From Macrocystis pyrifera (lineage: Eukaryota > Sar > Phaeophyceae > Laminariales > Laminariaceae), in contig JASSKH010000002.1 of assembly GCA_031763025.1 (NCBI GenBank), positions 17,830,468-17,894,467 on the forward strand: DNA of 64,000 bases, written 5' to 3'. This document shows, in pieces, positions 9,824 through 61,629 of this stretch. A program made the translations under genes and the position numbers. The notes below the pieces were generated by a model. It saw nothing but the letters and a program-made list of their open reading frames with translations, made no database searches and was not told the origin of the DNA. Positions within the stretch are counted from its first letter, which is position 1. Each line of letters opens with the position of its first letter.

Positions 9824-10079
9824 TGTTCGTTTGGATCGTTCCAGCAGCGACGGTTACAAGTTGTAGAGGGTTGCGTATGTCTTCGCAGGCGTTATTATGA
9901 ATTATGCCGTGTGTTCACGAGGAGAGTTTGAGCACTCCGTTCTCTGCTCCGTTCTCTGCTCCGAGCTACGAGCTAGGCTCCGCTCTCTCTCCCCTCATCT
10001 GTCCTCTAATACAACGATTATAAAGAAACTCATCAGACCACGTGGTGGTCAGGGCATCCAGGCTTGGACTCTATGAACA
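9824..10079 (+). repeat. copia-1 5' LTR
   Basis: 256 bp, TGTTCGTTTGG...TATGAACA. It contains a TATAAAG-like box near 10019-10025, which may act as the element's promoter (inferred). Confidence 0.95.
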
Positions 10080-10124
10080 CACTAGTGTACTTGAACGTTT
10101 GAGGTCTAGTACCAGAAGCCCACG

Positions 10125-11109
10125 ATGCCCTCGAAGGGATCGGCTCAAGAAGAGCGCGACTCTCCAAGTGACGTTGAAACGCTGCGACGCGAGATCGAAC
10201 TGGCGATGGAGAACAGCGAGGCGTCGATGCTGAACGCCATGAGGGAAATGATGACCGAGTTCATGAGGAACAACGGTCGATCGAAGCCAGGCAGCGCTGA
10301 AGGCAGCGTTGCTGTAGGAGAAAGTCCAGCAGAGGTAGGAACCACTGCTGTACGGGAAAGCCCAAGAGGGGCAGTACCCACTGCTGAAGTACGAGAGACT
10401 ACTGCTGCTGTTGAAGCAGGCATTGGTCGATCGGAATCCGGCAGCGCTGAGGGTAGCGCTGCTGTAGGGGAGAGCCCACAAGGGGCAGTACCCACTGCTG
10501 TAAGAGAGATTGCAGCAGAACAAGAGACAAATTTGCGTGAGGGCGCCTCGCCAGATTTGGGAGCAACTGGACGCGGAGGAACTGCGTTGCCTGTCGAGGT
10601 TGGCCCACCGAGGGGTCATCCAGACCAGCATGGGAGGACAGGAGGATGGGGTGCATACCCTGGCGGTGAGTTGGGTGGTGGATTTGATCTGCCTCTATCG
10701 CACCATTTGGCCTTCAAACACACTCCTGTGCCATCGTTTAGTGGGCTAAAATCTGAGTTCAACCCCTGGACAAGAGATGCTCGGTATTACGCCAAAGGAG
10801 TTGGTTTCTTGTCTGCTTTCGTGTCGGATCCACCACAGTACATTCCCGTAGGGGAATTAGACACCGAAAACTCGATGCTTGTCGCTAGGGGGTTTATGTG
10901 CACAGGCATACACTGGCATGGAATTTCCTGTCGACGGCCCTCAAGAGCAAGAGCGATAAAAGCATTTTGCACCGGTGTACCTCGCCGAGGCAAGCGTGGG
11001 ACGCTCTCCTTGCGTGGTACGGCCCTCAGACGACGGGGGCCAAATCAGACCTCTCCCGACGCCTTAACAGTTTTAAGATGGCGCGCCGGGGAGCAACCCG
11101 CTCGAGGAG
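10125..11109 (+). pseudogene. copia-1 gag N-terminal region, frameshifted
   Basis: The frame opens at ATG 10125, 46 bp after the LTR (MPSKGSAQEERDS). It encodes a charged region with repeated GSAEGSAAVGESP-type motifs, then a gag domain (FNPWTRDARYYAKGVGFLSA). Near 10890 coding moves to another frame (HRHTLAWNFLSTALKSKSD ... STSPRQAWDALLAWY in sense). Near 11095 it moves again into the long frame that starts at 11110. The pieces match the gag at 50936-52297 in order (YYAK/VYAK, AWNFLS/AWVFLS, TSPRQAWDALLAWY/TSPRKCWESIVDWY). These are therefore two frameshifts in one ancestral gag. Confidence 0.85.
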
Positions 11110-13737
11110 ATGGGCAGGATCGAGGATCTTGCCGCGGAAATGCGAACAGCAGGAATGTCAGTAGACGACCATATGCTGTACACCATATTTATTGACGCTC
11201 TGCCTGCCGAATACGAAGTGGAGGCTCGGAACCTGGCATCACGTGACAGCATCGGCCGTGATGACATCATCAAGGCTGTTCGAGAACAGCATCACCGACT
11301 TTCTGGAAACAGGAAGAAGGGGTCCAACGCTGGCCACGCAGGCCATGCTATGTACGCCGCCGGCGGCGGCGGTGGTGGTCGCCGGAAAGGCGGAGGAAAT
11401 AGCAAAGAAAAAGGTGGACGACGGGGCCACGGACGAGGCGGTAGAGGCTCCAACGAGGACGGTGGTGGCTCGGCCGCGGCTGCTGGTGGCAATGGTAACG
11501 ACGCCAAAGCCGCCAGCGGAAGTACTCCAGTGGGCAAGTGCCATAGGTGTGGCAAGAAGGGCCATTGGAGGAGCGAGTGTACGGCGAAGCTATGCAGTCG
11601 ATGCCAGGGACGCGGGCACTCTGCCGATGCCTGTCCCATGTCCACGGATCGATGCAGTCGATGCAACGGGCTGGGGCACGCTGCTGATGTCTGCCCGTCA
11701 TCGAAAGAAGAAGCCGTCATGGCGGTGACGAGTAAGGATGGGGCAAGGGACGACGACCCGGAAAAAGGTACGGTCCAGGCCTCAGCTTTCAAGGCCGAAG
11801 AGACAGGCAAGTGGAGCGATGGTTCGGGGGAAGGGGAGTCTGCTTGGCAGGTAGGAGAAGAGGCTTGGATATGTGATAGTGGTGCGTCTACCCACATGAC
11901 GCCCTCCGCTGACTGCGTGATCAATTATAGAGAATGCAACTTGACTCTCCGAATCGCTGACGGATCCACCCGAGCGATCGAAGGTTACGGTGACGTGAGT
12001 GTTGTCTTTCGGTCCGGAAACGGTCCCGTGCAAGTGCTGCTTACGAACGTTGCGCACGTGCCGGATCTCCGCTACCACTTATTTTCCCTGCCCACTCTGG
12101 TCAAAAACGGCCATACTTTCGAAGGGTGCCCCACGGGGGTTGTAATCAGGCTCAAGTCGGAGCGTTCGATCGTGTTCCCGTTGAGTGGGACTCTCTATAG
12201 CCTATACGGCTACCGGGTCGACCGCAGTTGTGGGGAAAATGCCTGTGCTGTACTCGCCCCGGGACAACTGCCCAACAAGTCTGCAATCAACATCAACGAT
12301 TTCCACTGCGCTGCTGGACACTCCCACGAGGTACTACTTCGCAAGACCGCGGAGCAGCAAGGGATTGTCCTCGAGGGAAAGCTGCTGGAGTGCAAAGGGT
12401 GCTCCATGGCAAAGGGTCTCCGCAAAGGTATCAAGCAGTCCACACACACACGAGCAGATAAGAAGCTCGGGAGGGTTTTTGTGGATTTGAGTGGACCAAA
12501 GGTGGTAGAGTCTCTCGGGCGGAAGCGGTATACTCTCATCGTGCGCGACAATTTTTCACCGTATACGTGGGTGTACTTTATGCGCCACAAGTCGGACGCC
12601 GCGGAAATGTTCGAGCTGTTCCTTGCCGATTCTCGTGCAGACGGTGTCCCTTCTACGGTGGTAATCGTCCGATCTGATGGGGGTGGTGAATTCCGCGGGG
12701 GAAAATTTGGCGATCTGTGTAGATCACGAGGGATCAAGCAGGAATTCACGACGGCCGACAGTCCCCAATACAGTGGAGTAGCAGAGCGCGCGCTAGGTTT
12801 GATAGAGACGGCCGCAATGGCGGGCCGAATCCAGGCTCAAGAGCTTTTTCCTGGCGCGAAACTCCCGGCCACGCCGTCGTTGTGGGCCGAAGCGTCCCAC
12901 TGGGCGTGTGACGCCTTGAACCGCACAGCAACAACAGCTAACCCGCAGAGCAAGTCGCCACATGAGATGTGGCATGGTAGCCCCCCCCCGGTAGTACTAC
13001 TGCCCTTCCTCAAGCCTGGCTATTGCAAGGTGAAGAGGGAAAACAAGTCACAGGCGAAAGCGCAGGAGTGCTTTTACCTCGGCCCTGCAACAAACTACCC
13101 CGGTGATTCAGTACGAGTGCTGACAAAGAACCGCACTGTGCTAATAACGCGCAATGTCACCTGGCAACGCGTGTCGCCTGCACCACCTGTACCTGCCCAG
13201 GCGAATGACTCCCTGTCTACGGAAAAGGGGGGGTCAGAGGCAGACGACGTGAGCACGTCGGATCGAGGTGGTGGGGGGGTGGTGAATGAGCTGGACAACG
13301 GTCTGGCTCACTTGAACGACCTCGACGTGACGTGGGGTTTTGACCTGGACGCGTTTATGCAGGAGCGCGCACAGCAGGCACCTGCCGCCGGCGAGGCCGG
13401 CGAAGAAACACCCGAGACGATGGGTTCGTCTCAAGGGGGCGCCGTGGACGCCTCCTCGGTCCCGACAGGGAGGGCCGAAACAGCCGAGACGATGGATTCG
13501 TCTCAAGGGGGCGCCGTGGACGCCTCCTCGGTCCCAACAGGGAGGGCCGGAAACGACCCGGGCGCAGCATCAGCCTCCGACACACCGGGCAAGGGGACGG
13601 TGAGGATCCCCCCGCGGTCCTGTCGGGAAGGCCAGCACACGAGCTCAGCAGCTGGGGCCGGCTCCCCCCGACTGTACGGGGCCGGACCCGGGGTCAAAGC
13701 CAACGCCTGGAGGGTGAACCTGCTGTGCACCAGGTAA
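11110..13737 (+). CDS. copia-1 gag C-terminus, protease and integrase
   Basis: This 875-residue open frame is the best-preserved coding stretch of the element. Gag continues to a Gly-rich linker and three CCHC knuckles (about residues 144, 162 and 182; the first is CHRCGKKGHWRSEC). The aspartic protease motif is WICDSGAST (D at ~256). The integrase HHCC finger has H 399/404/406 and C 428/431. The catalytic triad is D459 (VFVDLSGP), D523 (RSDGGGEF) and E559 (GVAERALG), with 35 residues between the last two. The C-terminal part holds two units of a 24-residue repeat (SSQGGAVDASSVP). The 5' end is set by the upstream frameshift, not by a real start. The frame ends before RT, in sequence that is out of register in both copia copies. 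Confidence 0.9.
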   Translation: MGRIEDLAAEMRTAGMSVDDHMLYTIFIDALPAEYEVEARNLASRDSIGRDDIIKAVREQHHRLSGNRKKGSNAGHAGHAMYAAGGGGGGRRKGGGNSKEKGGRRGHGRGGRGSNEDGGGSAAAAGGNGNDAKAASGSTPVGKCHRCGKKGHWRSECTAKLCSRCQGRGHSADACPMSTDRCSRCNGLGHAADVCPSSKEEAVMAVTSKDGARDDDPEKGTVQASAFKAEETGKWSDGSGEGESAWQVGEEAWICDSGASTHMTPSADCVINYRECNLTLRIADGSTRAIEGYGDVSVVFRSGNGPVQVLLTNVAHVPDLRYHLFSLPTLVKNGHTFEGCPTGVVIRLKSERSIVFPLSGTLYSLYGYRVDRSCGENACAVLAPGQLPNKSAININDFHCAAGHSHEVLLRKTAEQQGIVLEGKLLECKGCSMAKGLRKGIKQSTHTRADKKLGRVFVDLSGPKVVESLGRKRYTLIVRDNFSPYTWVYFMRHKSDAAEMFELFLADSRADGVPSTVVIVRSDGGGEFRGGKFGDLCRSRGIKQEFTTADSPQYSGVAERALGLIETAAMAGRIQAQELFPGAKLPATPSLWAEASHWACDALNRTATTANPQSKSPHEMWHGSPPPVVLLPFLKPGYCKVKRENKSQAKAQECFYLGPATNYPGDSVRVLTKNRTVLITRNVTWQRVSPAPPVPAQANDSLSTEKGGSEADDVSTSDRGGGGVVNELDNGLAHLNDLDVTWGFDLDAFMQERAQQAPAAGEAGEETPETMGSSQGGAVDASSVPTGRAETAETMDSSQGGAVDASSVPTGRAGNDPGAASASDTPGKGTVRIPPRSCREGQHTSSAAGAGSPRLYGAGPGVKANAWRVNLLCTR

Positions 13738-15477
13738 GGATGGATGAAAGGACCGCAGACGCGCTGCTTGCGGCAGCGTACGAGTCGTGGACGAAGCCTG
13801 GGAGTATGCTGGATCGTACGCCCTGGACGACGGAGGACGCAGTGGCTTTGATGGCCGGAGGACCTGCTGTGGAGAACAAAGGGGAGTTGAGCGTGTGCAT
13901 GCCGAGTGGTTTCCCGGAAGACGTAGAACCGCCCCCACAGTCCGTAGCAGATGTAGAGCGTTCTCAATACAAAGCGGCGTGGCACGAGGCCATGAAAATT
14001 GAGTTGGACGGTCACAAAACGACCGGTACGTACGAAGCCGCGACACCCGCCAAAAGGGCGGAAACCTGTAGGTGCGAAGTGGGTGTTTACCTACAAGACG
14101 GATAAGGATGGCTTGATAGTAAAGACAAAGGCCAGACTTGTGGCTAAGGGTTTTAGCCACGTGCAGGATGTAGATTATTTTCAAACGTTTGCACCGACTC
14201 CCTCGTCAGCGTCAGTTAAAATTCTGGCGGCTGTTGCAAATGAACATGGTTTAAAGATTTTTCATCTAGACGTCGCACAAGCTTTCGTTCGCGCGACACT
14301 CGACGCCGAGATATACATGAAACTGCTCGGTGGGTGTGGTGACATGTCAGGAAAGATCGTCCGCCTAAACAGATCACTGTATGGTCTAAAGCAGAGCGGA
14401 CGGCAGTGGGCCGGATTATTGGTAAGAGACCGTGGTAGAGTACGGAATGGAGCAGTGTAGGTCTGACCCGTGTGTGTTTCGCATGGTTGTGGACGGCAAG
14501 GTAGAACTGATCATGGCCGTTCATGTAGATGACATCGTGATCGCAGGATCGGATGAGACTTGTAGAGATTTCCATGCCGCGCTAGCTATGAAATTTCCCA
14601 CGAATAACCTTGGCGAACTGACTTGGTACACTGGTTGTGCTTTCAAACGCGACTGGGAACTGGGGACATCGGAGATTACGCAGAAGGCGTTCATTGAGAG
14701 CATGCTGAATCGTTTTGGTGTTAACTCATCCTCTGATATCCCCGCGACCCCCGGTGTGGAACTAGGTCCAAGAGAGGAGGGCGAACTTGGAGGAGACTGG
14801 CCGTACAGGGAGGCTGTGGGCAGCTTGATGTGGCTGTCGACCATGACGAGGCCGGACATCTCGAACGCTGTGCGTGCTGTGGCGCGCCACTCCCACAACC
14901 CAACGGAGAGGCACTGGAAGGCAGTTTTGAAGATTATGGCTTACCTCCACGGGACCAGGTTTATGGGATTGGCTTTTGTACGGGGCTCGGGTTTGGATTT
15001 GACTGCGTATAGTGATGCTGATTATGCGGATAAGTCGAACGATAGGCGCTCGGTATCGGGGACGGTAATTACCCTAGGGGTGCGGCCGTCAGTTGGGCAA
15101 GTAGTACGCAGAGGTGTGTTACGTTGTCGACAGCAGAAGCAGAGTATGTCGCCCTGGGTGAAGGGGTGAAGGAAGCTTTGTTTACGGGCGCGGTGTTGTC
15201 GTTTATCTGTCCAGAGCTAAGCGGATCATGTGTCCGGGTTTTCGAGGATAACCAGGGGGCCATAGCGTTGGCTGAAAACCCTCTTAGTTCTGCTCGGAGT
15301 AAGCATATCGACGTGCGTTTTCATTTTGTCAGAGAGCTACTTCGTGCTAAGAAGATCGACATTCAGTTCGTAGCTTCGGAAGAGCAGCACGCGGATATTT
15401 TGACGAAATCCCTTGCTGCGACCCCTTTTAAGTCTCATCGTAGGTTCTTGTTGAATCTGCCTTTGGAGGGTGACTGA
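13725..15477 (+). pseudogene. copia-1 reverse transcriptase and RNase H, frameshifted
   Basis: Four overlapping frames carry one protein. 13725-14105 holds the pre-RT region (MDERTADALLAAAYESW). 13999-14460 holds RT motifs (KWVFTYKTDKDG, KARLVAKGF, FHLDVAQAF, SLYGLKQSGRQW). 14432-15169 holds the VDD catalytic motif (AVHVDDIVIAG) and the start of RNase H (DADYADKSNDRRSVSG). 15124-15477 holds STAEAEYVALGEG, EDNQGAIALAENP and HADILTKSL. An extra C near 14047 and a missing G near 15077 are specific to this copy; copia-2 has the longer or shorter version. The break near 14422 is shared with copia-2. Confidence 0.9.
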
Positions 15478-15791
15478 GGGGTATGAGCATTATTCGATGA
15501 GTACCACGTTTGAGTGATGCGAGGAATAATTTGTCAGGTCGCCAACCCTGCGCTACTTTGAGGGGCATGGGGGAGTAGGGCACCGCTTGGCATTTTATTT
15601 TCTGGCCATGGTCATCGTTTGGAATGCGGCCGTTGTTTCAATTGCAATGGTTTGGAGTATATGTGTTATACAGGGGGTTTTGACCCGGTGGCCGGGTTTC
15701 CTCCTGCGGGACTGTCGTTGGCTGTTCTTAGGTCCTAGCAAGTCTTGAATGTCTTTTCGGTCTCGTCACTGCTGTGAAGAGCCAGCGAGGG

Positions 15792-16047
15792 TGTTCGTTT
15801 GGATCGTTCCAGCAGCGACGGTTACAAGTTGTAGAGGGTTGCGTATATCTTCGCAGGCGTTATTATGAATTATGCCGTGTGTTCACGAGGAGAGTTTGAG
15901 CACTCCGTTCTCTGCTCCGTTCTCTGCTCCGAGCTACGAGCTAGGCTCCGCTCTCTCTCCCCTCATCTGTCCTCTAATACAACGATTATAAAGAAACTCA
16001 TCAGACCACGTGGTGGTCAGGGCATCCAGGCTTGGACTCTACGAACA
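15792..16047 (+). repeat. copia-1 3' LTR
   Basis: 256 bp. It differs from the 5' LTR at two sites: an A/G change in the GCGTATRTCTTCG stretch, and C for T in the terminal CTCTAYGAACA. Confidence 0.95.
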
Positions 16048-28539: not shown

Positions 28540-29036
28540 TGGGCAGCGTCCGACCGACAGCGAAATATATTTGGTACTTGTAGCAGTTGCAAGTGTCGGA
28601 GCCTACGATGCATCATCGACGATAAATAAGACGTCTTAGAAGAGAGCTTCGGGTGCTTGCGTATGTATGTATCTATGTATCCATGCGTCCTGACTCCCGA
28701 CCACGCCCACCACAACGATCAACGACCAACTGCCACCAGACAACACTACCCATCCTCCAGCAGCAGCAGCAGGCGCCCAGCAGCACACCAGCAGCAGGCA
28801 AATCATGCGCGCGCGGTGGCACATCCGGGGTATACTTTATGACTAATTGCATGTATGGGAGCCTACGATGCAGCACCGAGGATGGATATTAGGTAGAGCT
28901 GGGGGCGCGGGCGCATCTGCAGCATGAATGACATCCCGCCTCCAAACGACACCGACCACAACGATCAACAACCGCCACCAGAAAAAAAAAAAACTACCGT
29001 ACTCCTCTGCCGTTGTTCTGAGCAGCAGTGCAATTC

Positions 29037-29549
29037 TCACAGCCAATCGAGAGGGCAGCAGTATGCATGTGCCTGCTGTCGCCACCGTGTGCCTGCGCCA
29101 CCACCACGCACCGCCGTCTCTGCTGTTGTTCGAGCTGTGCGGTTGGTATTTTGGATCGACAAGCTCGTCACAATTTCATTGACGTTTGTAGTGGACCGAA
29201 AAGCTGCGTCACAGTAGCAGGGTATCTCATGCAACCACTTGAGAGCGCAGCAGTAGTAGCAGCATAGTTCCTGTGATCGTCCATTGCCTCCACACCATAC
29301 ACACCGCCCACATCTTGCTGTGCAAACGTTGCTCGACCGGCATTGAGGCGGACGAAAATCGACTGAATGAAACGCCTCAAAATCGTTTAATTGACAAAAG
29401 TTGTCCCTATCCCTAGGAAGTGAGCCATATACGACTGAATGAAACGCCTCAAAATCGTTTAATTGACAAAAGTTGTCCCTATCCCTAGGAGGTGAGCCAT
29501 ATACGGCACCGGGCCAAGCGATAGGGACAACTTTTTGACTTACAAGCAA
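29037..29549 (-). CDS. Hypothetical Cys-rich ORF in macrosatellite unit 1
   Basis: This 170-residue frame starts with two ~24-residue repeats (RDRDNFCQLNDFEAFHSV) encoded by the 75-bp subrepeats. A Cys-rich stretch follows (RSSNVCTARCGRCVWCGG; CCYYCCALKW). The same frame is kept in units 2 and 3. Conservation equals that of the surrounding DNA, so it does not show selection. No family is recognised. Confidence 0.25.
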   Translation of the reverse strand: MLVSQKVVPIAWPGAVYGSPPRDRDNFCQLNDFEAFHSVVYGSLPRDRDNFCQLNDFEAFHSVDFRPPQCRSSNVCTARCGRCVWCGGNGRSQELCCYYCCALKWLHEIPCYCDAAFRSTTNVNEIVTSLSIQNTNRTARTTAETAVRGGGAGTRWRQQAHAYCCPLDWL

Positions 29550-30285
29550 AAAACAACGTAAAAACAGACTAGACTTTACGAGCTTGCACCAATCAAAGCA
29601 GAGCTATGACTTACCGTATGACTTGCAAAATGGCCGTGATTGGCCAACATTGCCGTTACAACTGCTGCTGAGCACAAATATCGTATTGAGCGTGCTACGA
29701 GTACAACATGCAGGCTGTTGTACATCGCTGCGGCCATGCCGCCCAGCAGCACCAGCAGGCAAAACCATGCGCGTGAGGTGGTACATCCGCAGTATACTCT
29801 TCTATGGCTTGTGTCGGGGCCTGCGATGCATCACGGAGGATGGATAGGTAGAGTTTGGGGTGCGGGCACATGTATGTATCCCGACTCCCGACCACACCCA
29901 CCGCGACGACCAACAACAACAACCACCACCTGCTGTTGCCCAGCAGCTTAGTAGCAGGCCAAACCAGCGCGTGAGGTGCACATCGGCGGTGTACTCTTGG
30001 CTACTGTACCTGTAGTTGCAAGTGTTGGAGCCTATGATGCCTCATCGAGGATAAATAGGAAGAGCTTGGTGTGCGGGGGCATGTACGTAATCCGACTCCC
30101 GAACACGCCCACCGATCAACAACCAACTAACTGCCACCAGGCAAAACTGCGTCCGAGGTGACACATCCGGAGTCTACTCTAAGACTTGGCTGCTGTTGTA
30201 CCTGTAGCAGTTGCAAGTGTCGGAGCCTACGATGCATCATCGACGATAAATAAGACGTCTTAGAAGAGAGCTTCGGGTGCTTGCG

Positions 30286-30426
30286 TGTTCGTTTATAAAG
30301 GAACAAAAGAAGTCCGGGGTTCGAGTCCCGCCAGACGTCGTATTTCCGCTTTTTCTGCCGTGGGTAGAAAAAGGGAAATCAAGTGGAGTGAACCACTTTG
30401 TTAAAAGAACGCACGACTAGGGAGGG
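30286..30426 (+). other. tRNA-B-box leader of copia-2
   Basis: These 141 bp precede the 5' LTR. They match the minus strand of 52537-52677 with a single one-base indel (AAAGGAAC against AAAGAAC). The leader contains GGGGTTCGAGTCCCGCC, a textbook pol III B box within a T-arm stem, but no A box upstream. It ends in AGGGAGGG, the same purine tract that precedes the 3' LTRs of copia-2 and of the element at 48639-52677. Confidence 0.9.
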
Positions 30427-30684
30427 TGTTCGTTTGGATCGTTCCAGCAGCGACGGTTACAAGTTGTAGAGGGTTGCGTATATCTTCGCAGGCGTTATTA
30501 TGAATTATGCCGTGTGTTCACGAGGAGAGTTTGAGCACTCCGTTCTCTGCTCCGTTCTCTGCTCCGAGCTACGAGCTAGGCTCCGCTCTCTCTCCCCCCT
30601 CCTCTGTCCTCTAATACAACGATTATAAAGAAACTCATCAGACCACGTGGTGGTCAGGGCATCCAGGCTTGGACTCTACGAACA
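30427..30684 (+). repeat. copia-2 5' LTR
   Basis: 258 bp, TGTTCGTTTGG...CTACGAACA. Same family as the copia-1 LTRs, with a CCCCCCTCCTC variant near 30596. Confidence 0.95.
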
Positions 30685-30729
30685 CACTAGTGTACTTGAA
30701 CGTTTGAGGTCTAGTACCAGAAGCCCACG

Positions 30730-33153
30730 ATGCCCTCGAAGGGATCGGCTCAAGCAGAGCCCGACTCTCCAAGTGACGTTGAAACGCTGCGACGCGAGAT
30801 CGAATTGGCGATGGAGAAAAGCGAGGCGTCGATGCTGAACGCCATGAGGGAAATGATGACCGAGTTCATGAGGAACAACGGTCGATCGAAGCCAGGCAGC
30901 GCTGAAGGCAGCGTTGCTGTAGGAGAAAGTCCAGCAGAGGTAGGAACCACTGCTGTACGGGAAAGCCCAAGAGGGGCAGTACCCACTGCTGAAGTACGAG
31001 AGACTACTGCTGCTGTTGAAGCAGGCATTGGTCGATCGGAGTCCGGCAGCGCTGAGGGTAGCGCTGCTGTAGGGGAGAGCCCACAAGGGGCAGTACCCAC
31101 TGCTGTAAGAGAGATTGCAGCAGAAGAAGAGACAAATTTGCGTGAGGGCGCCTCGCCAGATTTGGGAGCAACTGGGCGCGGAGGAACTGCGTTGCCTGTC
31201 GAGGTTGGCCCACCGAGGGGTCATCCAGACCAGCATGGGAGGACAGGAGGATGGGGTGCATACCCTGGCGGTGAGTTGGGTGGTGGATTTGATCTGCCTC
31301 TATCGCACCATTTGGCCTTCAAACACACTCCTGTGCCATCGTATAGTGGGCTAAAATCTGAGTTCAACCCCTGGACAAGAGATGCTCGGTATTACGCCAA
31401 AGGAGTTGGTTTCTTGTCTGCTTTCGTGTCAGATCCACCACAGTACATTCCCGTAGGGGAATTAGACACCGAAAACTCGATGGGTTCGTCTCAAGGGGGC
31501 GCCGTGGACGCCTCCTCGGTGCCGGCAGGGAGGGCCGAAACAGCCGAGACGATGGATTCGTCTCACGGGGGCGCCGTGGACGCCTCCTCGGTCCCGGCAG
31601 GGAGGGCCGAAACACCCGAGACGATGTGTTCGTCTCAAGGGGGCGCCGTGGACGCCTCCTCGGTCCCGGCACGTGGGGTTTTGACCTGGACGCGTTTAAG
31701 CTGGAGCGCGCACAGCAGGCACCTGCCGCCGGCGAGGCCGGCGGCGAAACACCCGAGACGATGCGTTCGTCTCAAGGGGGAGCCGTGGACGCCTCCTCGG
31801 TCCCGGCAGGGAGGGCCGAAACACCCGAGACGATGGGTTCGTCTCAAGGGGGCGCCGTGGACGCCTCCTCGGTCCCGGCAGGGAGGGCCGAAACACCCGA
31901 GACGATGGGTTCGTCTCAAGGGGGCGCCGTGGACGCCTCCTCGGTCCCGGCAGGGAGGGCCGAAACACCCGAGACGATGGGTTCGTCTCAAGGGGGCGCC
32001 GTGGACGCCTCCTCGGTCCCGGCAGGGTGGGCCGAAACACCCGAGACGATGCGTTCGTCTCAAGGGGGCGCCGTGGACACCTCCTCGGTCCCGGCAGGGA
32101 GGGCCGAAACACCCGAGACGATGGGTTCGTCTCAAGGGGGCACCGTGGACGCCTCCTCGGTCCCGGCAGGGAGGGCCGAAACACCCGAGACGATGGGTTC
32201 GTCTCAAGGGGGCGCCGTGGACGCCTCCTCGGTCCCAACAGGGAGGGCCGGAAACGACCCGGGCGCAGCATCAGCCTCCGACACCGTCCAAGGGAACGGA
32301 TCCCCCCGCGGTCCTGTCGGGGAGGACCGCACACGAGCTCAGCAGCTGGGGCCGGCTCCCCCCGACTGTACGGGGCCGGACCCGAGGTCAAAGCCAACGC
32401 CTGGAGGGTGAACCTGCTGTGCACCAGGTAAGGATGGATGAAAGGACCGCAGACGCGCTGCTTGCGGCAGCGTACGAGTCGTGGACGAAGCCTGGGAGTA
32501 TGCTGGATCGTACGCCCTGGACGACGGAGGACGCCGTGGCTTTGATGGCCGGAGGACCTGCTGTGGAGAACAAAGGGAAGTTGAGCGTGTGCATGCCGAG
32601 TGGTTTCCCGGAAGACGTAGAACCGCCCCCACAGTCCGTAGCAGATGTAGAGCGTTCTCAATACAAAGCGGCGTGGCACGAGGCCATGAAAATTGAGTTG
32701 GACGGTCACAAAACGACCGGTACGTACGAAGCCGCGACACCGCCAAAAGGGCGGAAACCTGTAGGTGCGAAGTGGGTGTTTACCTACAAGACGGATAAGG
32801 ATGGCTTGATAGTAAAGACAAAGGCCAGACTTGTGGCTAAGGGTTTTAGCCAGGTGCAGGATGTAGATTATTTTCAAACGTTTGCACCAACTCCCTCGTC
32901 AGCGTCAGTTAAAATTCTGGCGGCTGTTGCAAATGAACATGGTTTAAAGATTTTTCATCTAGACGTCGCACAAGCTTTTGTTCGCGCGAAACTCGACGCC
33001 GAGATATACATGAAACTGCCCGGTGGGTGTGGTGACGTGTCAGGAAAGATCGTCCGCCTAAACAGATCACTGTATGGTCTAAAGCAGAGCGGACGGCAGT
33101 GGGCCGGATTATTGGTAAGAGACCGTGGTAGAGTACGGAATGGAGCAGTGTAG
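30730..33153 (+). CDS. copia-2 fused gag - repeat - RT N-terminal frame
   Basis: This 807-residue frame starts at the same ATG as copia-1 gag. The first ~250 residues are the gag N-terminus, ending at TENSMG. There the sequence jumps to the 24-residue repeat region that lies after integrase in copia-1; the junction is at a shared CGATG. Three repeat units are read in the original frame, seven more in a shifted frame (WVRLKGAPWTPPRSRQGGPK). The frame then enters the pre-RT and RT region (MDERTADALL ... KWVFTYKTDKDG ... SLYGLKQSGRQW) and stops at the shared RT break near 33153. Knuckles, protease and integrase are absent. It is a deletion product; whether it is expressed is unknown. Confidence 0.8.
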   Translation: MPSKGSAQAEPDSPSDVETLRREIELAMEKSEASMLNAMREMMTEFMRNNGRSKPGSAEGSVAVGESPAEVGTTAVRESPRGAVPTAEVRETTAAVEAGIGRSESGSAEGSAAVGESPQGAVPTAVREIAAEEETNLREGASPDLGATGRGGTALPVEVGPPRGHPDQHGRTGGWGAYPGGELGGGFDLPLSHHLAFKHTPVPSYSGLKSEFNPWTRDARYYAKGVGFLSAFVSDPPQYIPVGELDTENSMGSSQGGAVDASSVPAGRAETAETMDSSHGGAVDASSVPAGRAETPETMCSSQGGAVDASSVPARGVLTWTRLSWSAHSRHLPPARPAAKHPRRCVRLKGEPWTPPRSRQGGPKHPRRWVRLKGAPWTPPRSRQGGPKHPRRWVRLKGAPWTPPRSRQGGPKHPRRWVRLKGAPWTPPRSRQGGPKHPRRCVRLKGAPWTPPRSRQGGPKHPRRWVRLKGAPWTPPRSRQGGPKHPRRWVRLKGAPWTPPRSQQGGPETTRAQHQPPTPSKGTDPPAVLSGRTAHELSSWGRLPPTVRGRTRGQSQRLEGEPAVHQVRMDERTADALLAAAYESWTKPGSMLDRTPWTTEDAVALMAGGPAVENKGKLSVCMPSGFPEDVEPPPQSVADVERSQYKAAWHEAMKIELDGHKTTGTYEAATPPKGRKPVGAKWVFTYKTDKDGLIVKTKARLVAKGFSQVQDVDYFQTFAPTPSSASVKILAAVANEHGLKIFHLDVAQAFVRAKLDAEIYMKLPGGCGDVSGKIVRLNRSLYGLKQSGRQWAGLLVRDRGRVRNGAV
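31478..32250 (+). repeat. 72-bp coding minisatellite, 3 + 7 units
   Basis: The unit encodes 24 residues around SSQGGAVDASSVPAGRAET. Three units (31478-31672) are followed by an ~80-bp segment equivalent to copia-1 13325-13400 and then seven units (31752-32245). Copia-1 has only two units (13419-13550). Confidence 0.9.
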
Positions 33154-34171
33154 GTCTGACCCGTGTGTGTTTCGCATGGTTGTGGACGGCAAGGTAGAAC
33201 TGATCATGGCCGTTCATGTAGATGACATCGTGATCGCAGGATCGGATGAGACATGTAGAGATTTCCATGCCGCGCTAGCTATGAAATTTCCCGCGAATAA
33301 CCTTGGCGAACTGACTTGGTACACTGGTTGTGCTTTCAAACGCGACTGGGAACTGGGGACATTGGAGATTACGCAGAAGGCGTTCATTGAGAGCATGCTG
33401 AATCGTTTTGGTGTTAACTCATCCTCTGATATCCCCGCGACCCCCGGTGTGGAACTAGGTCCAAGAGAGGAGGGCGAACTTGGAGGAGACTGGCCGTACA
33501 GGGAGGCTGTAGGTAGCTTGATGTGGCTATCGACCATGACGAGGCCGGACATCTCGAACGCTGTGCGTGCTGTGGCGCGCCACTCCCACAACCCAACGGA
33601 GAGGCACTGGAAGGCAGTTTTGAAGATTATGGCTTACCTCCACGGGACCAGGTTTATGGGATTGACTTTTGTACGGGGCTCGGGTTTGGATTTGACTGCG
33701 TATAGTGATGCTGATTATGCGGATAAGTCGAACGATAGGCGCTCGGTATCGGGGACGGTAATTACCCTAGGGGGTGCGGCCGTCAGTTGGGCAAGTAGTA
33801 CGCAGAGGTGTGTTACGTTGTCGACCGCAGAAGCAGAGTACGTCGCCCTGGGTGAAGGGGTGAAGGAAGCTTTGTTTACGGGCGCGGTGCTGTCGTTTAT
33901 CTGTCCAGAGCTAAGCGGATCATGTGTCCGGGTTTTCGAGGATAACCAGGGGGCCATAGCGTTGGCTGAAAACCCTCTTAGTTCTGCTCGGAGTAAGCAT
34001 ATCGACGTGCGTTTTCATTTTGTCAGAGAGCTACTTCGTGCTAAGAAGATCGGTATTCAGTTCGTAGCTTCGGAAGAGCAGCACGCGGATATTTTGACGA
34101 AATCTCTTGCTGCTACCCCTTTTAAGTCTCATCGTAGGCTCTTGTTGAACCTGCCTTTGGAGGGTGACTGA
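33125..34171 (+). CDS. copia-2 reverse transcriptase C-terminus and RNase H
   Basis: This 348-residue frame is uninterrupted. Residues ~29-39 are AVHVDDIVIAG, with the catalytic VDD of Ty1/copia RT. TWYTGCAFKRDW and SLMWLSTMTRPDISNAVRAV follow. RNase H has YSDADYADKSNDRRSVSG, STAEAEYVALGEG, EDNQGAIALAENP and the terminal HADILTKSL motif. The corresponding region of copia-1 has a one-base deletion (near 15077), so this is the better copy. It overlaps the preceding frame by 29 bp in another register. Joining RT palm motifs A and B needs a frame change at GGTAAGAGACC, which both copies share. Confidence 0.9.
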   Translation: MVEYGMEQCRSDPCVFRMVVDGKVELIMAVHVDDIVIAGSDETCRDFHAALAMKFPANNLGELTWYTGCAFKRDWELGTLEITQKAFIESMLNRFGVNSSSDIPATPGVELGPREEGELGGDWPYREAVGSLMWLSTMTRPDISNAVRAVARHSHNPTERHWKAVLKIMAYLHGTRFMGLTFVRGSGLDLTAYSDADYADKSNDRRSVSGTVITLGGAAVSWASSTQRCVTLSTAEAEYVALGEGVKEALFTGAVLSFICPELSGSCVRVFEDNQGAIALAENPLSSARSKHIDVRFHFVRELLRAKKIGIQFVASEEQHADILTKSLAATPFKSHRRLLLNLPLEGD

Positions 34172-34485
34172 GGGGTATGAGCATTATTCGATGAGTACCA
34201 TGTTTGAGTGATGCGAGGAATCATTTGTCAGGTCGCCAACCCTGCGCTACTTTGAGGGGCATGGGGGAGTAGGGCACCGCTTGGCATTTTATTTTCTGGC
34301 CATGGTCATCGTTTGGAATGCGGCCGTTGTTTCAATTACAATGATTTGGAGTATATGTGCTATACAGGGGGTTTTGACCCGGTGGCCGGGTTTCCTCCTG
34401 CGGGACTGTCGTTGGCTGTTCTTAGGTCCTAGCAAGTCTTGAATGTCTTTTCGGTCTCGTCACTGCTGTGAAGAGCCAGGGAGGG

Positions 34486-34742
34486 TGTTCGTTAGGATCG
34501 TTCCAGCAGCGACGGTTACAAGTTGTAGAGGGTTGCGTATATCTTCGCAGGCGTTATTATGAATTATGCCGTGTGTTCACGAGGAGAGTTTGAGCACTCC
34601 GTTCTCTGCCCCGTTCTCTGCTCCGAGCTACGAGCTAGGCTCCGCTCTCTCTCCCCCCTCTGTCCTCTAATACAACGATTATAAAGAAAAACTCATCAGA
34701 CCACGTGGTGGTCAGGGCATCCAGGCTTGGACTCTACGAACA
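34486..34742 (+). repeat. copia-2 3' LTR
   Basis: 257 bp, preceded by the purine tract AGGGAGGG (34478-34485). About four differences from its 5' LTR, including TTAGG for TTTGG and small indels. Copia-2 therefore looks somewhat older than copia-1. Confidence 0.95.
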
Positions 34743-35115
34743 TTGCATATGTATGTATCTATGTATCCATGCGTCCTGACTCCCGACCACGCCCACCACA
34801 ACGATCAACGACCAACTGTCACCAGACAACACTACCCATCCTCCAGCAGCAGCAGGCGCCCAGCAGCACACCAGCAGCAGGCAAATCATGCGCTCACGGT
34901 GGCACATCCGGGGTATACTTTATGACTAATTGCATGTATCGGAGCCTACGATGCAGCACCGAGGATGGATATTAGGTAGAGCTGGGGGCGCGGGCGCATC
35001 TGCAGCATGAATGACATCCCGCCTCCAAACGACACCGACCACAACGATCAACAACCGCCACCAGAAAAAAAACTACCGTACTCCTCTGCCGTTGTTCTGA
35101 GCAGCAGTGCAATTC

Positions 35116-35628
35116 TCACAGCCAATCGAGAGGACAGCAGTATGCATGTGCCTGCTGTCGCCACCGTGTGCCTGCGCCACCACCACGCACCGCCGTCTCT
35201 GCTGTTGTTCGAGCTGTGCGGTTGGTATTTTGGATCGACAAGCTCGTCACAATTTCATTGACGTTTGTAGTGGACCGAAAAGCTGCGTCACAGTAGCAGG
35301 GTATCTCATGCAACCACTTGAGAGCGCAGCAGTAGTAGCAGTATAGTTCCTGTGATCGTCCATTGCCTCCACACCATACACACCGCCCACATCTTGCTGT
35401 GCAAACGTTGCTCGACCGGCATTGAGGCGGACGAAAATCGACTGAATGAAACGCCTCAAAATCGTTTAATTGACAAAAGTTGTCCCTATCCCTAGGAAGT
35501 GAGCCATATACGACTGAATGAAACGCCTCAAAATCGTTTAATTGACAAAAGTTGTCCCTATCCCTAGGAGGTGAGCCATATACGGCACCGGGCCAAGCGA
35601 TAGGGACAACTTTTTGACTTACAAGCAA
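35116..35628 (-). CDS. Hypothetical Cys-rich ORF in macrosatellite unit 2
   Basis: 170 residues. It differs from the unit 1 ORF by C to Y in the SQELYCYYCC stretch. Confidence 0.25.
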   Translation of the reverse strand: MLVSQKVVPIAWPGAVYGSPPRDRDNFCQLNDFEAFHSVVYGSLPRDRDNFCQLNDFEAFHSVDFRPPQCRSSNVCTARCGRCVWCGGNGRSQELYCYYCCALKWLHEIPCYCDAAFRSTTNVNEIVTSLSIQNTNRTARTTAETAVRGGGAGTRWRQQAHAYCCPLDWL

Positions 35629-36733
35629 AAAACAACGTAAAAACAGACTAGACTTTACGAGCTTGCACCAATCAAAGCAGAGCTAAGACTTACCGTATAA
35701 CTTGCAAAATGGCCGTGATTGGCCAACAGTGCCGTTACAACTGCTGCTGAGCACAAATATCGTATTGAGCGTGCTACGAGTACAACATGCAGGCTGTTGT
35801 ACATCGCTGCGGCCATGCCGCCCAGCAGCACCAGCGAGGCAAAACCATGCGCGTGAGGTGGTACATCCGCAGTATACTCTTCTATGGCTTGTGTCGGGGC
35901 CTGCGATGCATCACGGAGGATGGATAGGTAGAGTTTGGGGTGCGGGCACATGTATGTATCCCGACTCCCGACCACACCCACCGCGACGACCAACAACAAC
36001 AACCACCACCTGCTGTTGCCCAGCAGCTTAGTAACAGGCCAAACCAGCGCGTGAGGTGCACATCGGCGGTGTACTCTTGGCTACTGTACCTGTAGTTGCA
36101 AGTGTTGGAGCCTATGATGCCTCATCGAGGATAAATAGGAAGAGCTTGGTGTGCGGGGGCATGTACGTAATCCGACTCCCGAACACGCCCACCGATCAAC
36201 AACCAACTAACTGCCACCAGGCAAAACTGCGTCCGAGGTGACACATCCGGAGTCTACTCTAAGACTTGGCTGCTGTTGTACCTGTAGCAGTTGCAAGTGT
36301 CGGAGCCTACGATGCATCATCGACGATAAATAAGACGTCTTAGAAGAGAGCTTCGGGTGCTTGCGTATGTATGTATCTATGTATCCATGCGTCCTGACTC
36401 CCGACCACGCCCACCACAACGATCAACGACCAACTGTCACCAGACAACACTACCCATCCTCCAGCAGCAGCAGGCGCCCAGCAGCACACCAGCAGCAGGC
36501 AAATCATGCGCGCGCGGTGGCACATCCGGGGTATACTTTATGACTAATTGCATGTATCGGAGCCTACGATGCAGCACCGAGGATGGATATTAGGTAGAGC
36601 TGGGGGCGCGGGCGCATCTGCAGCATGAATGACATTCCGCCTCCAAACGACACCGACCACAACGATCAACAACCGCCACCAGAAAAAAAACTACCGTACT
36701 CCTCTGCCGTTGTTCTGAGCAGCAGTGCAATTC

Positions 36734-38669: not shown

Positions 38670-38940
38670 GACGAAAATCGACTGAATGAAACGCCTCAAA
38701 ATCGTTTAATTGACAAAAGTTGTCCCTATCCCTAGGAAGTGAGCCATATACGACTGAATGAAACGCCTCAAAATCGTTTAATTGACAAAAGTTGTCCCTA
38801 TCCCTAGGAGGTGAGCCGAAACGCCTCAAAATCGTTCAATTGACAAAAGTTGTCCCTATCCCTAGGAGGTGAGCCCTGAATGAAACGCCTCAAAATCGTT
38901 TAATTGACAAAAGTTGTCCCTATCCCTAGGAGGTGAGCCG
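38670..38940. repeat. Expanded ~75-bp subrepeat at the end of the macrosatellite
   Basis: Four units of GAAACGCCTCAAAATCGTTT...CCTAGGAGGTGAGCC, where complete macrosatellite units have two. The last unit abuts mosaic R2 at TGAGCTACGTGAGCTC (38941). Confidence 0.9.
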
Positions 38941-48638: not shown

Positions 48639-48855
48639 TGTTCGTCAGCCCCAAGCACAGGTAGTCAAGACACCCAGACAATCGATGAGTTGATGATTCA
48701 GGTCGTTTATTATTATCTCCCAGCAGTGGTAGGGACAGCAGAAGTGACATTGTGCGTCATCCCATAACACCCAGATGTCAAGAATCACATAATGCACAAT
48801 ATGCCAATATCCCGAACCGGCACGTAACTGTCAAGCTAAAGAGGCACAACGAACA
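48639..48855 (-). repeat. 3' LTR of the gag-only element
   Basis: 217 bp with TGTTCG...CGAACA ends. AGGGAGGG lies just outside it in sense orientation (48856-48863). It has no counterpart at the element's 5' end. Confidence 0.8.
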
Positions 48856-49497
48856 CCCTCCCTGACTCTTTACGTATCATTTACGGACCGAGACAACAAC
48901 ACACAACTCCATGACCTAAACCACCCACAAACAAAAAAAAAATCGAAAAGAAAGAGGAAACCCACCCCTGTGAGCAAAAACCTCTCACTCTCCCCACAGA
49001 GAAATATTGCAATTGTAGACGATATTACAATATATCCACGCCAAAAAAATAATAAAAACTAAGGTGAAAAGTACAATGCCAGAGATCGCGGAGAACCCCG
49101 TTCCCCCGGACAAAGGTCTCCTTTTGCCCCCTACTCCCGTCATAAATTCTCAGATCGTAACGGTAATGCGAGATAGCATACGTCCTTTTTCACTTGTAAA
49201 ATTAGAATTTATCTGGCGCTAAAGTTACCCGAAAAATAATAGTCGCTACCCAGTAGCTCCTAATAATCGAATAAAGAAACAATAAAATGCCGCTACTGCT
49301 GTCGACACGAACAGCTTAAGCCCTCCCAGCTACGAAAACTATTCGATCGTTCGCAGAAAATATTTTATGTTCCACTTTTCTCCGATGCGAACAAGTATTC
49401 GCAAAATGATACTGTTGGCAGAACAACCAATCAACTCACCCTCCTTTATTTTGCAGGCAGTAGTCTACTGCCAAAAATAAAAGATACCCGCAAAATT

Positions 49498-50370
49498 CAA
49501 TATGATCAGTAGCCACCGCCAATACCAGCAATACACCTCACCTCCCTTTGGTGTATCAGCGTAACCTTATTTCTCCATACCGCTACCAGTATGCATTTCA
49601 TTTCTACCAGGCCCCATCTGGTCCTGTCTACACCAGAAAAACACTACAAGTTTTTCGGATTTACAAAGACTGTTTGATTTGAACATGAAAATACGTTTCG
49701 AAGCTACCAGGCGAAAAAGGCTACGTATACCACCCAGAACGAATCCCAGATGATACATCGTCTACTATCTACGGTTTCTCCACCCTTGCAATATAATCAG
49801 TAGCCACCGCCAATACCAGCAATACACCTCACCTCCCTTTGGTGTATCAGCGTACCCTTATTTCTCCATACCGCTGCCAGTATGCATTTCATTTCTACCA
49901 GGCCCCATCTGGTCCTGTCTACACCAGAAAAACACTACAAGTTTTTCGGATTTACAAAGACTGTTTGATTTGAACATGAGAATACATGTCGAAGCTACCA
50001 GGCGAAAAAGGCTACGTATACCACCCAGAACGAATCCCAGATGATACATCGTCTACTATCTACGGTTTCTCCACCCTTGCAATATAATCAGTAGCCACCG
50101 CCAATACCAGCAATACACCTCACCTCTCTTTGGTGTATCAGCGTACCCTTATTTCTCCGTACCGCTACCAGTATGCATTTCATTTCTACCAGGCCCCATC
50201 TGGTCCTGTCTACACCAGAAAAACACTACAAGTTTTTCGGATTTACAAAGACTGTTTGATTTGAACATGAGAATACATTTCGAAGCTACCAGGCGAAAAA
50301 GGCTACGTATACCACCCAGAACGAATCCCAGATGATACATCGTCTACTATCTACGGTTTCTCCACCCTGG
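49498..50370 (-). repeat. 291-bp tandem repeat, three units
   Basis: Units at about 49498-49788, 49789-50079 and 50080-50370 have an exact 291-bp period and few substitutions. On the minus strand each holds the same 63-residue frame (MYHLGFVLGGIRSLFRLVAS...). They occupy the non-coding part of the gag-only element. Confidence 0.95.
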
Positions 50371-50935
50371 CCGCAAATAAATAGACCTCACGTTCGACCA
50401 AAAAATAATAACTTCGATCGACAGGTGTATCCATCGTAAAATTAAATTCACCATTCATTCCTACGAAATCACACCATGATGACCAGACCTGCCCCCTCCG
50501 CCCCGCGATGTTGCCGGACCTTGCATGAAGCTCCGGCTGACGAAATACCCAGATCTGCTCGCTTGTTGCCACCCGGACGAAACCCCATCGTTATTTGGTA
50601 CTGCTGCAGACAGTCCACGATTACCCCACGCCCGTTTCCTGCCACCGCTTTTTAACAGCAGCAGAATGCACGCAGCTATTATGCCGCGCGACTTTGCCCC
50701 ACCTAACACCCCCCGGTAGGGTTGCACACGGCTGGCGGCCGTGCGGCTTCTCGCGGGATTTGCATGCAGACATGTACCCTCGCTGAGCGATAACCCCATA
50801 TCTGCTGCCTCCACAACCTCTGAAGTGGAGTGCGTACGGCAAATAAATGCCGTACGACTTGAAGTCCCCCGCTCGCAACACACACGGCGGAGGTGCCTAC
50901 GGTTGTCCGCCGTAGGGCTTTTAGCTGCAGTGCCC
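50371..50935. other. Non-coding segment downstream of gag
   Basis: In the place where pol would be expected I find no protease (DSGA), integrase or RT motif on either strand. Confidence 0.6.
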
Positions 50936-52297
50936 CTAAAACGCCGTTGTCTCCACATCATCATCTCCGGGATCCCCCACAATCGCAAACACGGCCTCCG
51001 CCGGCGATCCATCCATGTCCGCCGGCGATGCGCACTTGCTGCTCTCGTGTCCTCTCCCACCACACCTTTCGCAGAGCTTTGCAGTGCAACTGTTGCTGTA
51101 GTGGCCCGCAGCCTTGCACCGGAAACACCTCACTGTCGAGCCCTTCGCTTTGCCGGCTCCACCGTCTGAACTGGCGTTGCCGTTGCCTTCCTTCCCTTTT
51201 CCAGACCGACCCCCTTTTGCCTTTCCGCCCTTCCCTCCGTAACCACTTCCCCCTTTTCCGATGAGCGCAAGCGATTTCGATGAGCCCTTCGACTTGCCGG
51301 AAGATGAGGCTATTACCTCGTGTTTGCTGCGAACCAAGTTTATGATTTCCTTGCGATCGTAAACCTGCTTGAGATTCAGATCTCGGATCTCAAGCTCGTA
51401 CTCGGCAGCAGGCAAGGCAGAAACAAAACAGGCGTACAAAGTGTTGTCATCCACATTCATGCCTGCGTTGTTCAGTTTGACACGTAGGTCCTCCATCTCA
51501 TACAGTTTTTCTACGGGGTCGTCCTCCTTCCCGATTTGAAAGCTGTACAGCTGCCTCATGCAAGTTCCCTTCTGTGCATTGGTTTTTGTATCGTACCAAT
51601 CCACTATTGACTCCCAACATTTCCTCGGAGACGTACTTCGGTGAAAAGCTGCTTTGTCAACATTTGACTGTAGAGCTTGGGAAAGAAACACCCAGGCCAT
51701 CAATTGCCGCTCGTACATAGAGGCCGTCACTCCCTGCGTCATCATAGAAGCGCGGTCGCTTCCATCGGCCCTAACCTCGACGTATGGGTCACTTTCGAAG
51801 ACTGTCTCGAATCCATGTAGCTTCGCATAGACTCGCATCTGCTTCGAGAAGGTGTCGAAGTTCTCTCTCCCCTTCAAGACAGGAATTGCCAACTTGGGTT
51901 GGCCCAAAAATGGCCGACCACGGAGGGAGAGCTCACCTGAGGGGCCAACGCCCCAATCTTGCTCTCTACCGCCGAGCTGACTTTCCGTGCGACCAGCTCC
52001 CGCAGTACCACCACGTTCCTCCTTCCTGCTCCCGGTGCCATCGTCGGAGTGATCCAACGATGGTGACACAGCATCCCTCCCTGCTGTATCTACGGTAGGT
52101 AGCCCCTGCTCCCTGCCGGACTTCCGCTGCGCCTCAGTCTCTCGACTCGTTCTTAGTAGAGTCGCCATCATCTCAAGCAGCTCAGTATGAGATGATTTTT
52201 GACGCTCCTCCGCGTCTGCGGCTGCTTGTTGTAGAACTTGGAGAGACGGGCCCAGCTCCGAGACTACGGCTCTAAGACCATCAAGTTCATCCCCCAT
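50936..52297 (-). CDS. Ty1/copia-type gag with two zinc knuckles
   Basis: This 453-residue intact frame starts at ATG 52297 (MGDELDGLRAVVSELGPSL), 7-8 bases after the primer-binding-like site. The N-terminal ~65 residues look coiled-coil. A charged linker follows. The gag domain spans about 150-330 (FDTFSKQMRVYAKLHGFETV; LMAWVFLSQALQSNVDKAAF; STSPRKCWESIVDWYDTKTN; GMNVDDNTLYACFVSALPAA). A Gly/Lys-rich linker leads to CFRCKAAGHYSNSC (~391-404) and CERCGGRGHESSKC (~409-422), both C-x2-C-x4-H-x4-C. It is homologous to the broken copia-1 gag. It is the only intact gag of the window and could package RNA in trans. The frame ends VETTAF without continuing into pol. Confidence 0.85.
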   Translation of the reverse strand: MGDELDGLRAVVSELGPSLQVLQQAAADAEERQKSSHTELLEMMATLLRTSRETEAQRKSGREQGLPTVDTAGRDAVSPSLDHSDDGTGSRKEERGGTAGAGRTESQLGGREQDWGVGPSGELSLRGRPFLGQPKLAIPVLKGRENFDTFSKQMRVYAKLHGFETVFESDPYVEVRADGSDRASMMTQGVTASMYERQLMAWVFLSQALQSNVDKAAFHRSTSPRKCWESIVDWYDTKTNAQKGTCMRQLYSFQIGKEDDPVEKLYEMEDLRVKLNNAGMNVDDNTLYACFVSALPAAEYELEIRDLNLKQVYDRKEIINLVRSKHEVIASSSGKSKGSSKSLALIGKGGSGYGGKGGKAKGGRSGKGKEGNGNASSDGGAGKAKGSTVRCFRCKAAGHYSNSCTAKLCERCGGRGHESSKCASPADMDGSPAEAVFAIVGDPGDDDVETTAF

Positions 52298-52329
52298 AAT
52301 GAGGCTGCGTCGGTACCAACGACTCTCTC

Positions 52330-52445
52330 GTTCGTTTATAAAGGATAAACCACTGAGCTGCTCAGTCAGCGATAAACCACTGAGCTACTCAGTCAGGCTG
52401 ACTGAGTAGCTCAGTGGTTTATCCTTTATAAACGAACAAAAGAAG
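52330..52445. repeat. Palindrome with A-box (TAGCTCAGTGG) arms
   Basis: Arms of ~40 bp (GTTCGTTTATAAAGGATAAA...CTACTCAGTCAG and its complement) meet near 52390. One arm has an extra ~27-bp unit (GATAAACCACTGAGCTGCTC...). The arm ends CTTTATAAACGAACA are the complement of the leader terminus TGTTCGTTTATAAAG. Confidence 0.85.
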
Positions 52446-52677
52446 TACCTTTGGGCTCGATACGGCCTCCCGCCGATAGCATCTTCCGGGGTTGATCAAG
52501 CCCCTAATCAGCGCCTGGTTTTTCCTTCCTATTGTCCCCCTCCCTAGTCGTGCGTTCTTTTAACAAAGTGGTTCACTCCACTTGATTTCCCTTTTTCTAC
52601 CCACGGCAGAAAAAGCGGAAATACGACGTCTGGCGGGACTCGAACCCCGGACTTCTTTTGTTCTTTATAAACGAACA
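52330..52677 (-). other. 5' terminal module with tRNA-like boxes and palindrome
   Basis: Sense order on the minus strand: TGTTCGTTTATAAAG terminus, B box GGGGTTCGAGTCCCGCC (52632-52649 region), AGGGAGGG, a ~100-bp unique stretch, and then a palindrome ending CTTTATAAACGAAC at 52330. The outer ends are therefore inverted repeats of ~14 bp. Inside the palindrome GAGTAGCTCAGTGGTTTATC, an excellent tRNA A box, occurs in both orientations. A and B boxes are present but in the wrong order for a simple tRNA on the minus strand. Confidence 0.75.

Positions 52678-61597: not shown

Positions 61598-61629
<32 letters not shown>

Follow-up and report, generated by a model that had tools for sequence, protein, structure and literature searches.

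Two different retroelements within a 64,000-nucleotide stretch of the Macrocystis pyrifera genome (contig JASSKH010000002.1 of assembly GCA_031763025.1, positions 17,830,468 to 17,894,467; hereafter the window) begin with almost the same short leader, which raises the question of what this leader is and how it came to cap both. The features concerned are listed below, together with an ordinary copia copy that serves as a control.

9824..16047, plus strand: copia copy A, an ordinary member of the family found in composite B, without the leader (control); target duplication GCCTC/GCCTC
30286..34742, plus strand: composite B, the 5' part of a mini-element followed by a deleted copia element (5' LTR, open-frame remnants, 3' LTR); duplication TTGCG/TTGCA, with empty sites
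30286..30305, plus strand: remnant of a palindromic terminal repeat lacking its centre (20 bp of 84), recognised by comparison with other copies
30306..30426, plus strand: first 121 bp of the mini-element internal region, ending in AGGGAGGG, recognised by its match to other copies
30318..30328, plus strand: perfect B-box motif GGTTCGAGTCC, the A box being absent here
30427..30684, plus strand: copia 5' LTR, directly 3' of AGGGAGGG
32722..33424, plus strand: matches to copia reverse transcriptase (RVT_2), over two open frames
34486..34742, plus strand: copia 3' LTR, with CCAGGGAGGG just before it
48639..52677, minus strand: composite C, a gag-only copia element with a mini-element where its 5' LTR would be and with the 3' LTR at the opposite end; duplication GTGTA/GTGTA
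52330..52677, minus strand: mini-element of C, in which the 5' repeat is collapsed, the internal region complete and the 3' repeat rearranged, its CGAAC end at the gag body
50936..52297, minus strand: copia gag open reading frame of 453 aa (Retrotran_gag_2), with zinc-knuckle matches below the curated cut-off
48639..48855, minus strand: 3' LTR of C, 217 bp, with TCAGGGAGGG just before it

The two leaders are nearly identical, as a preliminary description of this DNA had reported, a one-base indel near base 15-17 being their sole difference. The plus-strand copy (30286-30426) has the 141 bp and the coordinates originally given to it, whereas the minus-strand copy is 140 bp long and runs from 52677 to 52538, not 52537. 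In both cases the leader is the outermost 5' sequence within a 5-bp duplication of its own, its TGTTCG start following directly on the duplication, and the perfect B box ascribed to it is present as GGTTCGAGTCC. The bodies are indeed different, a deleted copia element with its own LTRs in B and a gag-only element with a 217-bp LTR in C; the LTRs are real, and the domains detected (RVT_2 in B, Retrotran_gag_2 in C) are those of the copia superfamily.

Composite B sits as one insertion within a satellite of ~1.6-kb units. Its target duplication, TTGCG/TTGCA, matches at four of five positions and lies outside the leader on one side and the copia end on the other. Three other satellite units (near 28660, 36366 and 37984) carry GCTTGCG-TATGTATG uninterrupted, and these empty sites support a single integration in which the leader entered together with the rest of B. 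Over 255 aligned bases its two LTRs show three substitutions, besides indels, which marks a fairly young insertion; the same count is not decisive as to whether the two LTRs come from different parents. The leader meets the body at AGGGAGGG, as had been proposed, and at this joint the mini-element shares 8 exact bp with the tract preceding the 3' LTR of B. The exact copia AGGG/LTR border occurs at 331 places in the genome, the B joint among them. The satellite, the units of which contain internal repeats, extends over 28574-38817 of the window, and the copia open frame of B contains a minisatellite of ~72 bp (31478-32261) with apparently fewer units in copy A.

In C the leader was likewise integrated together with its body, GTGTA (TACAC on the other strand) standing on both sides with a 5/5 match on the minus strand. 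The earlier claim of a joint at AGGGAGGG between the leader and this body is incorrect, because the mini-element continues for a further ~208 bp and replaces the 5' LTR, meeting the gag body at about 52330. The normal border of the C family, in which an LTR ending in GACGAACA is followed by a few bases and GAGAGTCGTTGG, was found at 55 genome places; C has a mini-element end where the family normally has an LTR end, a joint that was found once. Among 11 relatives of the C gag, one from Laminaria digitata has 58% identity over 66% of the query and another reaches 77% identity. Separately, the 3' half of C holds three tandem repeats of ~291 bp (49498-50371), and a 4.56-kb tandem duplication, 99.7% identical (52779-57338 and 57335-61894), begins ~100 bp from its outer end.

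The genome search suggested in the preliminary description was carried out on the 537-Mb assembly and gave at least 51 matches to the leader (40 of 543 first-look candidates were scored), most spanning leader bases 4-141. Thirty-five regions (20 + 15) were fetched that together cover every match outside the window, and removal of duplicates recognised by identical flanks (L017, L035, L046, L043 and L044) left 30 distinct loci. Identical flanks at separate places (L016/L017, L034/L035, L042/L043/L044 and L021/L046) point to segmental duplications or assembly repeats. Judged from these copies, the leader is not a free-standing module but forms the 5' portion of a non-coding mini-element present in high copy number.

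The mini-element unit, assembled from several, mostly rearranged, copies, consists of an 84-bp palindromic terminal repeat (TGTTCG...CGAACA), an internal region of ~220 bp (220 bp in L011, 217 bp in L017) and the same repeat again. The 84-bp repeat of L017 is its own reverse complement; this copy also served as the reference for joint mapping, the B mapping lying before its internal deletion and so being unaffected by it. A gap-free scan, which misses loci with indels in the palindrome, found two palindromes (up to four mismatches) at a spacing of 220 bp in L022 and of 217 bp in L016, making clean copies of 2 of the 30 loci. The exact 84-bp palindrome is present in 8 of the 30, and many loci are arrays, in both orientations, inversions or palindromes with indels. 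Genome-wide, 211 places have the 22-base centre of the palindrome, and its exact 42-base half is present 150 times. Perfect arms of 42-43 bp surround 4 of 20 sampled centres (L068, L074, L075 and L076) and are absent from the other 16, in a sample that was hand-picked, not random, and in which at least these four were already among the exact-half matches; most palindrome centres therefore probably lie in older or rearranged copies.

The internal region opens with AAAGAAGT and closes with ACTTCTTT. No polypurine tract stands before the 3' repeat, where pyrimidines are found in both orientations, and AGGGAGGG lies inside the internal region, 99 bp from its end. Inspection by eye of the sequence after the 5' repeat, AAAGAAGT, revealed no recognised primer site. 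With no such tract and no recognised primer site, the anatomy leaves the replication route of the mini-element unexplained. It is a short non-coding element with identical TG...CA terminal repeats, as TRIM elements are, few loci being this regular; since the 3' tract is missing and the promoter is split, unlike that of Helenus, it is best filed as TRIM-like rather than as a TRIM member, and is presumably non-autonomous. As a further observation, several copies, namely those in L011 (3344), L013 (7313), L021 (3812) and L034 (1330), have their start at the palindrome centre (GCTGACT...) or one base away from it; this position may correspond to the tip of a hairpin or to the 5' end of an RNA.

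The promoter boxes are distributed over both parts of the unit. In the L017 copy the A box, TAGCTCAGTGG, lies at base 53, in the terminal repeat, and the B box at base 97, in the internal region; this distance of 44 bp is the spacing of tRNA positions 8 and 52. The start of B reads TGTTCGTTTATAAAGG followed by AACAAAAG, that of C is one G shorter and that of L010 two bases longer, all three representing the palindrome minus its centre. The collapse in B and C may go back to one lesion or to two, the identical remainder of their leaders being compatible with either. Both window leaders have lost the A box with the deleted centre and kept the B box, and a pol III role for the leader, as read from its motifs, appears weakened by this loss. 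A T5 run follows 32 bp after the B-box start, suggesting that a putative pol III transcript would be ~90 nt long and too short to act as a full-length template; the predicted ~91-nt RNA is no more stable than shuffled sequences (z -0.19). ARAGORN found no tRNA genes in the window, and no known RNA family was found there by Rfam at gathering scores. A search for a parental tRNA gene with the A/B-box pattern returned 132 matches; among the matches listed, most look like (diverged) members of the mini-element repeat, and some are too diverged to say.

The association with copia is not confined to the window. In 10 of the 30 distinct loci (L009, L011, L013, L018, L023, L025, L034, L036, L037 and L041, the last with one base intervening) the mini-element adjoins copia-family sequence, a proportion that is not a genome-wide rate, the loci having been selected by similarity to the leader and being biased towards young copies. 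All seven composites with both outer ends found possess a 5-bp duplication, which is perfect in six (L009/L050 CCATG, L013 CACAC, L018 GGGGG, L025/L048 AGATA, L034/L049 CAAGA and C GTGTA) and 4/5 in B; that of L018 is weak owing to its poly-G location. In the remaining 5 of the 10 composite loci, one or both ends are truncated or lie beyond the fetched stretch. Units without copia have perfect duplications in 7 of 13 cases (L014, L017, L019 with GAGGC/GAGGC, L022, L028, L040 and L045), with a 4/5 match in L027 and none in L010, L020, L026, L033 and L047, giving 13 perfect duplications among the 20 units with two recognisable ends. Mismatched flank pairs produced no perfect 5-mer in 380 and a match of at least 4/5 in 1 of 380; taken with the genome matches, this places the leader pattern beyond chance. 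Fused elements are thus found inside one target duplication, the arrangement known from complex insertions attributed to template switching.

The joints themselves provide a record of how the partners met. Sixteen mini-element/copia joints were submitted to a script, five copia/copia joints being left out of the counts, and 12 were resolved; L009, the right joint of L013, L023 and L036 gave no result because differences from the reference copies prevented exact matching. The resolved joints share 8 (B), 9, 5, 4, 4, 3, 2, 0, 0, 0 and 0 bases, and one has an extra base; that is, 4-9 bp are shared at 5 of the 12 and three or fewer at 7 of the 12. Random joins share 0.66 bases on average, with five or more at 0.0044 and eight or more at 0.0002; the 5-bp overlap is a run of C. 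Four low-overlap joints are located at, or at most one base from, element termini (L018 twice, L025 and L034), and L009/L050 and L023 contain copia pieces in inverted order.

We assign a probability of roughly 70% to the reading that a TRIM-like mini-element, with 84-bp palindromic repeats and split A and B boxes, had its cDNA joined to copia cDNA before integration and that each chimera then entered the genome as a single insertion. The anatomy, termini, duplications, empty sites and shared joint sequence are features of the DNA itself. The mini-element would be mobilised by copia integrase, which is probable because its termini resemble those of resident copia families (TGTTCGTT...CGAACA); its cDNA would often be joined to copia cDNA, and the chimera would insert once, leaving one 5-bp duplication around the whole. 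Joining would proceed by template switching and probably by end joining as well. The earlier proposal of template switching or recombination between cDNAs at the polypurine tract is therefore retained as regards joining before integration and the position of the B joint, but does not extend to all joints.

Plus-strand synthesis normally begins at the tract that precedes the 3' LTR, proceeds through the LTR and the primer site, and is then transferred to the other end. In B, plus-strand synthesis on mini-element DNA could have arrived at AGGGAGGG and switched there to the same purine sequence in front of a copia LTR; copying of the LTR and primer site would then give an over-long strong-stop strand with its extra sequence on the 5' side, and the usual second transfer would produce leader-LTR-body-LTR, a product that, like B, has no leader at its 3' end. 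One switch would suffice, a second recombination being unnecessary. In C the mini-element takes the place of the 5' LTR at ~6 bp or less from the LTR/internal border, and loss of the palindrome centre would fit a polymerase jump over a 42-bp hairpin. The enzyme, the strand and the timing of the hairpin loss are what we infer here. Several observations count against the preferred reading: 7 of the 20 units have no perfect duplication, that of B contains a mismatch, clean two-repeat copies are rare, and the mini-element shows neither a tract in front of its 3' repeat nor a recognised primer site. A bolder extension, which we consider unlikely, is that these elements form an LTR-like class whose palindromic repeats act as 42-bp hairpins carrying half a tRNA promoter. 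Such a class would dispense with the usual primer site and tract in its replication, perhaps by way of self-priming hairpins or a circular intermediate, and its hairpin ends would allow it to cap cDNAs from several copia families promiscuously.

Template switching alone is insufficient for all joints, and a second route, in which the ends of finished cDNAs are joined, has to be taken seriously; it fits some joints better than switching does, since 7 of the 12 share 0-3 bp and four of these lie at element termini. Taken as the explanation of the chimeras in general, the ligation of completed linear cDNAs, or their microhomology-mediated end joining, with integrase acting on the outer ends, is possible, though on balance we do not favour it. 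It would account for L025, which unites two intact termini without loss (CGAACA/TGTTCG), for the copia pieces of L018 that abut mini-element termini exactly or within one base, for the single extra base between copia end and mini-element in L034, and for the existence of inverted copia pieces. However, the B joint lies exactly at a purine tract, with 8 shared bp, and the C joint near the LTR/internal border, both of which are landmarks of reverse transcription. Chimerism before a single integration is common to the two routes. Were copia instead to have been inserted into, or converted into, a mini-element already resident in the genome, the abundance of copia (331 exact AGGG/LTR borders, including the B joint), the presence of mini-element arrays and the fragility of palindromes, which are prone to breaks, would all be in keeping with this, and for B a gene conversion with AGGGAGGG and the common CGAACA as its limits may be envisaged. 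Nested insertion of copia is nevertheless rejected because it would duplicate mini-element sequence and not the outer flanks, whereas in B and C the duplication stands outside the leader on one side and the copia end on the other, and in five more composites it likewise surrounds the outermost ends; we regard post-integration origins as quite improbable.

The mini-element might alternatively be a DNA transposon of foldback or MITE type and not a retroelement, a reading that arises because palindromic ends render direct and inverted repeats indistinguishable. The missing tract, the lack of a recognised primer site, the arrays in both orientations and the small number of clean two-repeat copies agree with such an element; it seems doubtful, however, given TG...CA ends that resemble those of copia LTRs, 5-bp duplications like that of copia copy A, and chimeras with copia. 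The view of the preliminary description, in which the leader acts as a mobile module that provides an integrase-competent end and possibly a pol III element, drew strength from the near-identity of the B and C leaders, and three collapsed starts, each opening with TGTTCG, are consistent with it. Yet the leader belongs to a larger element, from whose terminal repeat the collapse has removed the A box. Exact-pattern searches of the 537 Mb returned a single occurrence of the B leader/LTR joint, a single one of the C mini-element/gag joint and three of the collapsed start (B, C and L010), so propagation of the leader as such is without support. Two further exact patterns, one placing a mini-element start after a copia purine tract and the other placing the primer region of the B family after a mini-element end, had no match in the genome. 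A mobile module is accordingly very improbable, and a recurrent hybrid lineage, its joints being unique or absent by exact pattern, was rejected.

The event class, joined cDNAs that enter by one integration, is known, and the palindromic, promoter-splitting terminal repeat looks like the new part. In the Triticeae, complex LTR retrotransposon insertions inside one 5-bp duplication have been ascribed to template switching (Sabot and Schulman 2007, PMC1950507). In common with these, the present composites are fused elements that form one insertion with a single 5-bp duplication; however, the Triticeae examples unite two copies of one family with a common internal LTR, whereas here a mini-element and copia are joined, the joints falling on the purine tract, close to the LTR/internal border, on element ends or on other short stretches of common sequence. 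ONSEN copies, too, recombine often while being reverse transcribed, although among members of one family (PMC5668417). As regards the mini-element, Helenus and the proposed TRIMp3 are short non-coding LTR-type elements of fungi and plants with 5-bp duplications and tRNA-derived A and B boxes, and in fungi a dependence on copia is suspected (Kojima 2024, PMC10886601). Helenus carries its tRNA-like sequence within the LTR and possesses a primer site and purine tract; in contrast to Helenus and TRIMp3, the terminal repeat here carries the A box and is palindromic and the internal region carries the B box, and no word beginning palindrom- or inverted occurs in the main text of Kojima 2024. Ajax, beside Helenus and Cassandra, is also a mini-LTR element with a tRNA or 5S promoter (PMC10886601, PMC7215508). 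Cassandra resembles the mini-element in the pol III promoter of a mini-LTR element and in tandem LTR-internal arrays, but its promoter is 5S-derived and lies within the LTR, and no mention of palindromic LTRs was found in the available part of the source (PMC7215508). The biv-TRIM elements of bivalves share the want of a clear primer site, palindromic or inverted inner segments, and solo and tandem forms, their palindromes lying in the inner domain and not in the terminal repeats (PMC6934838). The main text of an Ectocarpus transposon survey (PMC12477816) contains neither TRIM, chimeric nor tRNA as a whole word, and no counterpart to a palindromic, promoter-splitting terminal repeat was found in the literature searched, subscription papers lying outside the search.

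The composites constitute a natural, joint-by-joint record of the fusion of retroelement DNA between families, followed by successful integration, in brown algae, whose mobile elements have been little studied. They can mislead repeat annotation, since they have the look of nested insertions yet are single events, and the palindromic repeat poses the testable question of how the mini-element primes its own copying. Two further observations concern individual loci. The flanks at 4436 and 9181 of L010, GGGCA and its reverse complement TGCCC, belong to two mini-elements 4.7 kb apart and look like a duplication separated by an inversion between them. The right flanks of L014, L033 and L045 all resemble ACATAAAAACCTATATATTT, as if one other repeat had been hit near the same spot.
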